A program made the position numbers and the translations under genes. Of a stretch of 49,621 nt of DNA, positions 26,773 through 31,645 are shown piece by piece. The DNA lies in the NCBI GenBank assembly GCA_029778615.1, contig JAKOPZ010000161.1, positions 1-49,621 of the forward strand. Reading direction: 5' to 3'. This stretch comes from Chloroflexota bacterium (GTDB taxonomy: Bacteria; Chloroflexota; Anaerolineae; UBA4142; SHND01). The notes beneath the pieces were generated by a model. It was not told the origin of the DNA. It made no database searches and worked only from the letters and a program-made list of their open reading frames with translations. The first letter of the stretch is position 1. Each line of letters opens with the position of its first letter.

Positions 26773-27869
26773 ACATTCGTTGCGCAAACTGCGGCGCGCA
26801 GTATGAATTGAATACGCGCGCGTGGAAATGTGAAACGTGCGGCGGACTCGTACAAATTGTGGGTGCGCCCAAATTTGATGCAACGCAAATCGCGCGTCAA
26901 GACACCACCCTCTGGCGTTATCGCGCCCTCCTGCCCCTTCCCGAACACGCGACCCCGATTTCACTCGGCGAAGGTTGGACGCCGCTCATCCCCCTTCCCT
27001 ATCGTGAACGTAACATTTATTGCAAACTCGATTTTCTCAACCCGACGGGCTCGTTCAAAGACCGCGGCACAAGCGTCATCGTCAGCGCGGTGAAAGCATT
27101 CGGCATTGAACACGTGGTCGAAGATTCGTCGGGCAACGCGGCGGCTTCGCTCGCGGGATATTCCGCGTACGCGAATTTGCGCGCGACAATTTTTGTGCCC
27201 GCGCACGCGTCGCCGATGAAACTCGCGCAGATTCAAGTGTACGGCGCGGAATTGAAAAAAATCGAGGGCGTGCGCGAAAAATCGGCAGAGGCGGCACAAG
27301 ACGCGGTAACCCATCAAGGCGCGTACTATGCATCGCATTATTACAATCCATTTTTTGTCGCGGGCATGCAAACGACGGCGTGGGAAATTTGGGAACAGCT
27401 CGGGCGCGCGCCGGATGTGATTGTCATGCCGGCGGGACAGGGCACGAATATGGTTGGCATGTATCGCGGTTTCGCCGCGCTGCATGATGCAAACTTGATA
27501 CCCGCGCTGCCGCGTTTCATTGCCGCACAAGCCGCGCTGGTCGCACCCCTCGCGCTCGCGTACGAACGCGGCGCAAGTGAACCCGCGCGCGTGGAACCAC
27601 AGAACACCATCGCCGAAGGCATTGCGAATACGCAACCCGTGCATGGACACGAGTTGTTACGTATTGTACGTGAAACGAACGGCGCGGCGATTGCGGCAAG
27701 CGAAGATGAAATCCGCGCCGCGCGCGTGAACTTGGCGCGACTCGGCATTTTCGTAGAACCGACGAGCGCGACCGCGATGGCGGTGTTGGAAAAAATTTGG
27801 GACAAATTTGGTAATGCGGAAACCGTTGTTGTGAGTTTGACGGGGAACGGCTTGAAAGCGCCAGTATGA
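26769..27869 (+). CDS. thrC: Threonine synthase with N-terminal zinc ribbon
   Basis: A 366-residue pyridoxal-phosphate enzyme making threonine from O-phosphohomoserine. A zinc ribbon formed by Cys5, Cys8, Cys21 and Cys24 is found in the archaeal/Chloroflexota form. The cofactor Lys97 is in NPTGSFKDRG. The phosphate-binding SSGNAAASLAGY follows (near residue 120), and AGQGTNMVGMYRGF and SLTGNGLK complete the fold II features. The protein belongs to the fold-type II family together with cysteate synthase, which is an alternative call that sequence cannot fully exclude. It is coupled at both ends: ATGA overlaps with the SEC-C gene before it and with the PhzF gene after it. Confidence 0.9.
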   Translation: MNIRCANCGAQYELNTRAWKCETCGGLVQIVGAPKFDATQIARQDTTLWRYRALLPLPEHATPISLGEGWTPLIPLPYRERNIYCKLDFLNPTGSFKDRGTSVIVSAVKAFGIEHVVEDSSGNAAASLAGYSAYANLRATIFVPAHASPMKLAQIQVYGAELKKIEGVREKSAEAAQDAVTHQGAYYASHYYNPFFVAGMQTTAWEIWEQLGRAPDVIVMPAGQGTNMVGMYRGFAALHDANLIPALPRFIAAQAALVAPLALAYERGASEPARVEPQNTIAEGIANTQPVHGHELLRIVRETNGAAIAASEDEIRAARVNLARLGIFVEPTSATAMAVLEKIWDKFGNAETVVVSLTGNGLKAPV

Positions 27870-28735
27870 CACATCCTTTTTATATCGTTGATGTTTTTGC
27901 CGAACAAAAATATGCGGGGAATCAACTCGCGGTTGTGCAGCACGCCTCCGACCTGGACGCGCAGACGATGCAGCGCATTGCCCGCGAAATGAATTTTGCC
28001 GAGACGACGTTCATTCTCTCCGACGAGCCGCGCAACGGCGGCTATGATGTGCGAATTTTTACACCGCGCGCCGAAGTGCCGTTTGCCGGACATCCGACGC
28101 TCGGGACCGCGTTTGTGATTGAGAATGAAATCGCGCCGCGCGACACGCGTCCGATTGTGTTGAATTTGCAAGTCGGACAAATTCCGGTGACATTCGACGG
28201 CGATGTATGGTGGATGAAACAGAACGCGCCGACGTTCGGACAAGTTTGTACTCCATCGCAGTTGACGAGCGTATTGAATTTGCAGGAAGCGGATTTTGAT
28301 GCGCGCTTTCCGATTCAAGAAGTTTCAACCGGTTTGCCATTCCTTCTCGTCCCGTTGAAAAATCTCGATGCAGTGCGTCGCGCGCAGATCCATTTGGCAG
28401 CGCTCAAAAATTTGATTGCGCCGCTCGAAGCGAAAATGATTTTTCTGTTCAGTCCCGAAACGTACGCGCCGGAAAATCAATTGAACGCGCGGATGTTTGG
28501 CGATGAATATGGCGTGAGCGAAGACCCGGCAACGGGCAGCGCGAATGGTTGTCTCGCGGGCTATTTAGTCAAATATAACTATTTCGGTCCGTCCGAAATT
28601 AATCTGCGCGTCGAACAGGGTTATGAAATCAATCGCCGCTCGTTGTTGCGGCTGCGCGCGTCCGAACGCAACGGGGCTTTTGATATCCATGTCGGCGGCA
28701 AAGTGTTTCCCAGCGCGCGCGGTGAATTGGTCTAG
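27866..28735 (+). CDS. PhzF-family isomerase/epimerase
   Basis: A 289-residue protein of the PhzF family, cofactor-independent isomerases with two diaminopimelate-epimerase-like halves. Family landmarks: FYIVDVFAEQKYAGNQLAVV at the start, the Glu in MNFAETTFIL that serves as proton donor in PhzF, FAGHPTLGTAFVI and EDPATGSANGCLAGYL (the Asp-x-Ala-Thr-Gly line). Only some members take part in phenazine synthesis; no other phenazine gene is present, so the substrate is unknown, possibly a small amino-acid derivative. It overlaps the threonine synthase gene by four bases, which hints at amino-acid metabolism. Start at ATG 27866. Confidence 0.88.
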   Translation: MTHPFYIVDVFAEQKYAGNQLAVVQHASDLDAQTMQRIAREMNFAETTFILSDEPRNGGYDVRIFTPRAEVPFAGHPTLGTAFVIENEIAPRDTRPIVLNLQVGQIPVTFDGDVWWMKQNAPTFGQVCTPSQLTSVLNLQEADFDARFPIQEVSTGLPFLLVPLKNLDAVRRAQIHLAALKNLIAPLEAKMIFLFSPETYAPENQLNARMFGDEYGVSEDPATGSANGCLAGYLVKYNYFGPSEINLRVEQGYEINRRSLLRLRASERNGAFDIHVGGKVFPSARGELV

Positions 28736-28837
28736 CCATCGCGATGGGTCAAATGTAAGATTGCCAAGTGAAATGAATCAGAGTATCAACAACGCAAGTC
28801 TTTTTTTGCTCGATCTCGTACTGGGCGCATCGGCTTT

Positions 28838-28865
28838 TTGGCAGTCGGCAGCATTTTGATATAAT
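28838..28865 (+). promoter_or_regulatory. Promoter of the small membrane protein gene
   Basis: TTGGCA (28838-28843) and TATAAT (28860-28865) with a 16-bp spacer. GAAAGGAG follows 15 bases downstream as the ribosome site. Confidence 0.8.
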
Positions 28866-28896
28866 CTCTGTCGTTGGACAGAAAGGAGACGACCGC

Positions 28897-29172
28897 ATGA
28901 AAAAGTTTTATCTCGGCTTGAGCATCGTCGGCTTGACGTTGCTGCTTTTCGCGACGGCGTTTGCGTTTTCGCTGCTGCTCCAGCGATTGCATGTGAGCAC
29001 GTTCAGCATGGCAGAACCGGCGGCGCCGGTCGTCATTGCCGCGCCGATGACCTCGGCGGACGAAGCACAAATCGCGTCTCCCCGTTCCGACACGGTGCGA
29101 ATGGAAGAATATCTGACGCCCGACCATTTGTGCCAGAAAAAAGAGCAATCAGACCGCATCACCGATTTCTAG
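28897..29172 (+). CDS. Small membrane protein, unknown
   Basis: A 91-residue protein with a positively charged start (MKKFY), one hydrophobic helix (about 6-29) and a mostly hydrophilic tail. It could be a single-pass anchor or an uncleaved signal. The tail has no recognised domain. A clear promoter (28838-28865) and the strong ribosome site GAAAGGAG, eight bases before the ATG, argue that it is a real gene. A large hairpin with a T-run downstream (29204-29268) would end its transcript. It lies alone between the PhzF gene and selD. Confidence 0.6.
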   Translation: MKKFYLGLSIVGLTLLLFATAFAFSLLLQRLHVSTFSMAEPAAPVVIAAPMTSADEAQIASPRSDTVRMEEYLTPDHLCQKKEQSDRITDF

Positions 29173-29203
29173 TTTTCGCGCGTTTCTTTCGCTGCGCCTT
29201 TTA

Positions 29204-29268
29204 CTCACGCAAGACTTGGCGGACAAAGACCTGTCTTTGTGCGTTGAGGTTTGGCGTGAGATTTTTTT
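29204..29268. terminator. Large hairpin with T-run
   Basis: The outer arms CTCACGC (29204-29210) and GCGTGAG (29254-29260) and the inner stem ACAAAGAC-CT-GTCTTTGT (29223-29240) form a long hairpin, followed by seven T. It could end the small membrane protein transcript. Its right arm also overlaps the TTGGCG of a possible selD promoter. Confidence 0.65.
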
Positions 29269-29279
29269 CCCTGTATGAT
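29251..29279 (+). promoter_or_regulatory. Likely promoter of selD
   Basis: TTGGCG (29251-29256) and TATGAT (29274-29279) with a 17-bp spacer. The -10 is six bases before the ATG, so the transcript would be leaderless. Confidence 0.55.
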
Positions 29280-29285
29280 GCAACC

Positions 29286-30335
29286 ATGACCACGGCGAAA
29301 CAGATTCGTCTCACCGCTTACGCCGCATGTGCGGGCTGAGCTGCCAAGCTCGGCGCTGCCGAATTGGCGCAAGTTTTGCGTCCGCTCTCCGGTATGTTTG
29401 ACGCGAGTCAATTTCCCAATTTGCTCGTGGGACTAGGCGCGCCCGATGACGCCGCCGTGTACCGCGTGGCAGATGACCGCGCCATAATTCAAACGATGGA
29501 TTTTTTTCCGCCGGTGGTTGACGACGCGTATGCGTTCGGCGCCATCACGGCGGCGAATGCGATGAGCGATGTGTATGCGATGGGCGGCCAAGTGCTGTTT
29601 GGTTTGAACATTGTCGCGTGGCGCGAAGATTTGCCGCTGGAATTATTGTCGGAAATTTTGCGCGGCGGCGCGGAAAAGATGCGCGAGGGCGGCGGCGTGA
29701 TTGCGGGCGGGCACACCATCACGGACCAGGAACCCAAATATGGTATTGCCGTAACGGGCGTGGTGAATCCGCAGCAGCTATTGACCAAAGGCGGCGCGCA
29801 GCCGGGCGATGTTTTGCTTTTGACGAAACCGCTCGGCACAGGTATTCTCACGACGGCGGGCAAACGCGGCATCGCCTCTGAACAACATCTCGAAAACGCG
29901 ATTCGCTGGATGATGCAATTGAATCGCCATGCCTCGCTCGCGGCGCGCGCCGTCGGAATTCAAGCGGCAACGGACATTACGGGATATTCGTTGTTAGGAC
30001 ACGCGTACGAGATGGCAGCCGCGTCGGGAGTTCAATTTTGTTTTGAACTGGACGCCCTGCCAATTTTGGATGGCGCGCTCGAATTGGCAAAACTGGGCAG
30101 CAGTCCGGGCGGCACCGCGCGCAACCGTGACTATTTACGCGACAAGGTGTTATTACCAGAGACTTTGTCGGACGAAGCGGAAGCGCTTTTGTTTGACCCG
30201 CAAACGTCGGGCGGATTGTTAATGGCGGTGCCGGGTGAAAAAGTGGACGCGCTGAACCGAGAATTTCATGCGCGCCAAGTACAAGCTTGGACGGTTGGCA
30301 AAGTCGTAGACGGAACAGGTATCCGCATAGCGTAA
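29286..30335 (+). CDS. selD: Selenide, water dikinase (SelD), itself a selenoprotein (UGA = Sec)
   Basis: SelD makes selenophosphate from selenide and ATP for selenocysteine and selenouridine synthesis. The gene has an in-frame TGA at 29337-29339. Read as selenocysteine it gives a full-length 349-residue protein starting MTTAKQIRLTAYAACAG-U-AAKLG, so Sec18 stands where Escherichia coli SelD has the catalytic Cys17 and Lys21 matches Lys20. Downstream, the ATP-binding and core motifs DDAAVYR, TMDFFPPVVDDAYAFG, AANAMSDVYAMGG, GGHTITDQEPKYG and FDPQTSGGLL are intact. An automatic caller would start after the TGA at about 29364 and lose the active site. A hairpin just after the UGA (29343-29368) fits a bacterial SECIS. 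selA, selB and selC are not in the window. No ribosome site is seen; a -10 lies six bases before the ATG. Confidence 0.93.
29343..29368 (+). promoter_or_regulatory. Putative bacterial SECIS element
   Basis: GCCAA / TTGGC and TCGGC / GCCGA form two stacked stems around a GC/A bulge with an apical GCT. The apex is about 16-18 bases after the UGA, within the spacing used by bacterial SelB. Confidence 0.6.
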
Positions 30336-30358
30336 ACAGAATTTACTTTGAGGTATTC

Positions 30359-31645
30359 ATGAATCCTAACGGGCATCACGATGGGCGCGACGACCAACGC
30401 GTCGTCATTACAGGTATGGGCGTTGTTTCGCCGCTCGGACATACAGTAGAAGATTTGTGGCAAAATTTGTTGGCGGGAAAATCTGCCGCGCGCAAGATTG
30501 ACCGCTTTGACGCGACACATTTCGCCGTCCAGATTTGTTCGGATATTGGCGAACACATGTTTGATATTGACCAATACGCCGACGTGATTGACAAAAAAGA
30601 AGCGCGGCGGCTCGACCCTTTTGAACAATACGCGGTGGTCGCGACAAGTCAAGCATTGAACCAAGCAGGACTCACGATTGACGATGACAACCGCGATGAG
30701 ATTGGTGTGCTCATTGGCACGGGGCTCGGCGGTCTGATTGTGATTGACAACGGCTACAAGGCGTTGAACGAAAAAGGTCCGATGCGCGTCAGTCCTTTTA
30801 CGGGCGCGTTGATGATTCCCAATATGGCAGGCGGACAGGTTGCCATTACGTTCGGTGCGCGCGGTCCGAATTTTTGTGTGGTGTCAGCGTGCGCGACGGG
30901 TTCCAATTCTATCGGCGAGGCGTACGAAATTATTCGGCGCGGCGACGCGTTGGCAATGATTACCGGCGCGACGGAAACGATTATGACGCCGTTCGCGTTA
31001 TCCGCGTTTCATCGCACCCAAGCCATGTCTACGCGCAACGATGACCCTACCCACGCGTCGCGTCCCTTTGACGCGAAACGCGATGGGTTTGTGTATGGGA
31101 ACGGCGCGGGGATTTTGATTTTTGAGCGCCTCGATTTTGCCAAACAGCGCGGCGCAAAGATTTTGGCAGAAGTTATCGGTTATGGCGCGACGGATGATGC
31201 ATACCATATCAGCGCGCCAGTCCCCGATGGCAACGGCGCGCGCCGCGCCATTCGCCGCGCGCTGCAAAAAGCGCAAATCAAACCGGAACAGGTTGACTAT
31301 ATCAACGCACACGGCACGTCAACGGTGCTCAACGACGCGGCAGAAACAGCAGCCATTAAAGATGTGTTCGGCGAATACGCGTACGCCGTGCCTATCAGTT
31401 CTTCCAAATCCATGCTCGGACATCTCATGGGTGCGGCGGGCGCGGTGGAAGCGGTGATTACGGTCAAGACGATGCAGGAAGGGTGGATGCATCCGACCGT
31501 CAATTACGAGTATCCGGACCCCGCGTGCGACCTTGACTATATTCCCAATACGCCGCGCCAAAAAGAGGTAAATATCGCCATGTCCAATTCGTTCGGCTTT
31601 GGCGGACACAACGCGTGCGTGATTTTTGCCAAGTGGCAAAACTGA
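30359..31645 (+). CDS. fabF: Beta-ketoacyl-ACP synthase II
   Basis: A 428-residue condensing enzyme that extends fatty-acyl chains with malonyl-ACP. The catalytic triad is visible: Cys178 (VSACATGSNS), His318 (NAHGTSTVLND) and His355 (MLGHLMGAAG). The N-terminal VVITGMGVVSPLG and the C-terminal SNSFGFGGHNACVIF are family ends. A short His/Asp-rich N-terminal tail (NPNGHHDGRDDQ) is unusual. TTTGAGGT, five bases before the ATG at 30359, provides the ribosome site. It is 23 bases after selD but has its own strong terminator (31675-31718), so it may be co-transcribed with selD. No other fab genes are in the window. Confidence 0.95.
   Translation: MNPNGHHDGRDDQRVVITGMGVVSPLGHTVEDLWQNLLAGKSAARKIDRFDATHFAVQICSDIGEHMFDIDQYADVIDKKEARRLDPFEQYAVVATSQALNQAGLTIDDDNRDEIGVLIGTGLGGLIVIDNGYKALNEKGPMRVSPFTGALMIPNMAGGQVAITFGARGPNFCVVSACATGSNSIGEAYEIIRRGDALAMITGATETIMTPFALSAFHRTQAMSTRNDDPTHASRPFDAKRDGFVYGNGAGILIFERLDFAKQRGAKILAEVIGYGATDDAYHISAPVPDGNGARRAIRRALQKAQIKPEQVDYINAHGTSTVLNDAAETAAIKDVFGEYAYAVPISSSKSMLGHLMGAAGAVEAVITVKTMQEGWMHPTVNYEYPDPACDLDYIPNTPRQKEVNIAMSNSFGFGGHNACVIFAKWQN

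Follow-up and report, generated by a model that had tools for sequence, protein, structure and literature searches.

The window, the whole stretch of 49,621 nucleotides that was analysed, carries selD in a frame that runs from an ATG at 29286 to a TAA at 30333-30335 and contains a single internal stop, the TGA of codon 18 (Table 1). The neighbouring genes are ordinary: upstream of selD lie genes for MoaC, a PLP-dependent enzyme and a PhzF-like protein, and downstream lie genes for a ketoacyl synthase and RNase III. Those sequence matches that have a named source are to metagenome-assembled genomes of Chloroflexi/Anaerolineae.

Table 1. Features of the selD locus and related genes on other contigs of the same genome
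Feature	Location	Strand	Details and basis
Gene for a small protein of 91 residues, directly upstream of selD	28897-29172	+	No Pfam match; conserved at this place in 6/6 genus genomes
Long terminator-like hairpin and T-run directly upstream of selD	29204..29268	+	Linked feature
selD, selenophosphate synthetase, 349 residues with Sec at residue 18	29286..30335	+	Translation with TGA=U; TIGR00476
In-frame UGA (Sec18), catalytic Cys position	29337..29339	+	Translation, alignment with 3u0o, relatives' codons
Putative bacterial SECIS hairpin	29340..29370	+	Apical loop GCU at 29355-29357; MFE -16.7 kcal/mol for 29337-29375
Conserved Lys21 codon, three residues past Sec	29346..29348	+	Translation, alignment with 3u0o
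tRNA-Sec (selC)	C103:81663-81755		Anticodon TCA; 68.4 bits, Rfam cut-off 47
selA	C262:30606-31940		578.7 bits
AhpC-TSA family gene with one in-frame TGA	C158:26263-26661 (L076)		...AFTATUDRQ..., TGA at active-site position
AhpC-TSA family gene with one in-frame TGA	C285:7515-7880 (L077)		...FTUPHC..., TGA at active-site position

The read-through translation matched the TIGR00476 selD profile with 370.2 bits (cut-off 125) over profile positions 1-309 of 311. Moreover, residues 5-345 could be aligned with E. coli SelD (PDB 3u0o), residue 18 matching the Cys within AGCGCK, while the catalytic motif UAAK paired with CGCK in 3u0o and with CAAK in 2yye. The alignments with E. coli SelD and with PDB 2yye/2zod, SelD of Aquifex aeolicus, extend over nearly the full length and include the catalytic loop and the Lys; by contrast, the chains in these structures have Cys at the position of Sec. 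The original prediction had placed the UGA at the catalytic Cys position, three residues ahead of the essential Lys, with an intact frame behind it, and its coordinates are right on each of these points. In total, we conclude from the sequence that the product of selD is a selenophosphate synthetase, with predicted activity.

A SelD protein match was found in 279 of the 298 genomes of the class, and among the matches listed for these 298 genomes, counted by hand, 145 of 150 contained exactly one internal TGA while none contained TAA or TAG. Closer inspection of 48 loci, mostly from independently assembled genomes and including some genomes taken twice, from two collections, shows TGA at the Sec position in 46 and a Cys codon in two, once TGC and once TGT. 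TGA thus recurs at this exact place far beyond chance expectation, and the prospect that relatives might carry a different stop or sense codon there without conservation, which would have spoken against Sec, did not materialize. Five SelD matches among those listed lack the TGA; one of these begins only at residue 30, and the other four are full-length (G270, G107, G242 and G222). G242 has kept selA, selB and tRNA-Sec, and G222 has kept tRNA-Sec with no selB over the cut-off. G270 and G107 have neither a selB over the cut-off nor a convincing tRNA-Sec, which fits Sec decoding.

Downstream of the UGA, the comparison of this genome (G000) with the genus relative G237 gave 46 codon changes at third positions versus 18 others, and the frame past the UGA is intact and under protein constraint. 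These data bear on the reading that selD is a decaying pseudogene or that its TGA stems from faulty sequencing or assembly, which could be entertained given that the sequence comes from a single metagenome-assembled genome (6.0 Mb in 372 contigs, 95% complete); with the TGA recurring in mostly independent assemblies, Cys codons in the two exceptions and a constrained frame behind it, we regard this reading as already refuted by conservation and give it hardly any credence.

The mechanical list of open reading frames shows selD only as a 323-aa frame starting at TTG 29364, as expected from the original prediction that gene callers would truncate the gene, and this listing is what speaks for translation from that downstream start, with a shortened protein and an untranslated upstream stretch. 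Such a protein would lose the catalytic loop; moreover, the residues ahead of the TGA, MTTAKQIRLTAYAACAG, are conserved among relatives; of the 9 codons in that stretch that differ from G237, 8 carry synonymous changes. Translation from TTG 29364 is therefore extremely improbable.

In 40 of the 48 SelD loci (L022-L069), a Cys is found three residues ahead of Sec (CAGU, a CxxU motif; Cys15 here), where E. coli SelD has Gly. A selenenylsulfide could form between Cys15 and Sec18.

Starting at the UGA, 39 bases fold into a hairpin whose 3-nt loop corresponds to bases 16-18 past the UGA, exactly where its apex had been predicted. Compared with the bacterial SECIS model in Fig. 2A of PMC13188914, the hairpin is similar in having a 3-nt loop beginning with G, a 5-bp upper stem and an energy below -7.5 kcal/mol, but differs in the UGA-loop spacing, which is 15 nt here versus 16-37 in the model. 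Among 200 dinucleotide shuffles, 15 folded as well (z -1.64), as did a fraction of 0.0245 of 2000 synonymous recodings; thus, the hairpin is only marginally more stable than expected by chance, which by itself is weak evidence. The same fold recurs in most order-level relatives, with very little variation in its pairs, but not in more distant ones. Comparison of the relatives' loci gave no compensatory changes in the hairpin, and the search of 28700-30400 against Rfam gave no credible RNA element and only one match at chance level. The hairpin roughly fits the bacterial model and is a plausible SECIS; alone, it is insufficient to carry the claim that SelD contains Sec.

The genome encodes a single convincing tRNA-Sec as well as selA, which is above its cut-off in 245 of the 298 genomes of the class. 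In a profile search of the genome's contigs, no full-length selB scored over the cut-off, since contig ends interrupt the gene: the N-terminal 52 residues lie at the end of contig C160 (L018) and are 85-94% identical to SelB of five genus relatives, the C-terminal 245 residues lie at the end of contig C144 (L019) and are 55-62% identical to the same proteins, and about 330 residues of the middle are missing from the assembly at the contig break. SelB is intact in all five of these relatives (345-359 bits). Thus, with selB split over two contig ends, a full-length search wrongly suggests that it is absent. The original prediction held that UGA is decoded as Sec with selA, selB and selC elsewhere in the genome, and would have fallen had no Sec machinery been present; the machinery is there. 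In total, we conclude that the genome, as judged from its gene content, carries the Sec-decoding trait, with tRNA-Sec, selA, a selB that is incomplete in the assembly, and further likely selenoprotein genes.

These further genes are two members of the AhpC-TSA family, each with one in-frame TGA (Table 1), and both are likely selenoprotein genes. TGA-bearing matches to this family recur across the genus. A third TGA-bearing type of the peroxiredoxin family, with GYSUGAC, was observed in the relative G237 (L085, L086). In some species SelD is reported to be the only selenoprotein (PMC1794560); for this genome, that SelD would be the sole selenoprotein was rejected on account of the two peroxiredoxin-family genes, and the tally of at least SelD and these two is a lower bound. 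Formate dehydrogenase was rejected as the main selenoprotein since the best match to its alpha subunit in the genome lacks an internal TGA. Similarly, a role of selD in selenouridine synthesis was rejected because mnmH/ybbB, encoding selenouridine synthase, was not found in the genome. Finally, the single HesB-like copy in the genome has no TGA. Selenophosphate would therefore go into Sec synthesis, for SelD itself and for two or more peroxiredoxin-like proteins.

Sec insertion at codon 18 is a prediction, and the UGA might instead be read as Cys or Trp or be passed by near-cognate readthrough. The genome encodes tRNA-Sec, SelA and SelB, other genes in the window terminate at UGA, and G270 and G107, with their TGA-free SelD, are the genomes without selB over the cut-off or a convincing tRNA-Sec; against this background, we rate a reading as anything other than Sec as most improbable. 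General reassignment of UGA is excluded, as the codon serves as an ordinary stop for further genes of the window, for instance in the ATGA overlap at 27866-27869.

Altogether, these observations support the original interpretation, and we conclude that selD is almost certainly a standard gene for a Sec-containing selenophosphate synthetase. Taking the gene, its codon, the conservation of that codon and the machinery observed here together with what is known of these families, we propose that SelB carrying Sec-tRNA-Sec would bind the hairpin just past the UGA, acting as a SECIS, and direct the ribosome to insert Sec18 instead of stopping. Sec18, in a mobile N-terminal loop, would then act with Lys21 in the ATP-dependent synthesis of selenophosphate, which in turn would be the selenium donor for SelA in making Sec-tRNA-Sec. 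Because SelA needs selenophosphate to make Sec-tRNA-Sec, SelD would need its own product in order to be made.

Upstream of the gene for the 91-residue protein there is a strong promoter-like site (28838-28865). The protein itself has one probable membrane helix and is probably membrane-anchored. Between this gene and selD, the arrangement of hairpin and T-run is found in 6 of 6 species of the genus (L022-L027) with differing stem sequences, the T-run ending 0-21 bases before the ATG; an outer GCGTGA arm is common to five of the six, and in its strict form the pattern is almost confined to selD in these genomes. It is conceivable, though doubtful, that this leader hairpin is a transcription attenuator controlling selD in the genus; it may equally be a mere terminator of the small upstream gene. 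If it answers to selenium or to the supply of Sec-tRNA, it would place feedback control on a self-dependent enzyme.

Sec-containing SelD is well known in bacteria. SelD is the second largest prokaryotic selenoprotein family (PMC13188914), and a survey of 223 genomes found Sec in 19% of SelD genes (PMC4561486). Among bacterial selenoprotein families, SelD is one of the two most abundant, the other being FdhA, and Sec-to-Cys conversions occur in both (PMC1794560). The selD described here resembles the Sec-containing bacterial SelD of PMC13188914 and PMC4561486 in family, in the position of Sec and in the arrangement of UGA and downstream hairpin. Nothing essential differs from these accounts, except that the Sec form is nearly universal in the class here and not a minority. 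The passages of these papers that were considered do not name the lineage, and no paper on selenoproteins of Anaerolineae was found by title or abstract in the literature searched.

The finding is thus real, correctly read and already explained; it is an ordinary one that needs no new concept. It leaves knowledge of SelD unchanged and matters for annotation more than as a discovery: a mechanical gene caller would drop the catalytic loop, and SelD would be listed in shortened form. It also points to decoding of UGA as Sec in this lineage and to Sec-containing SelD as the normal form in the class.
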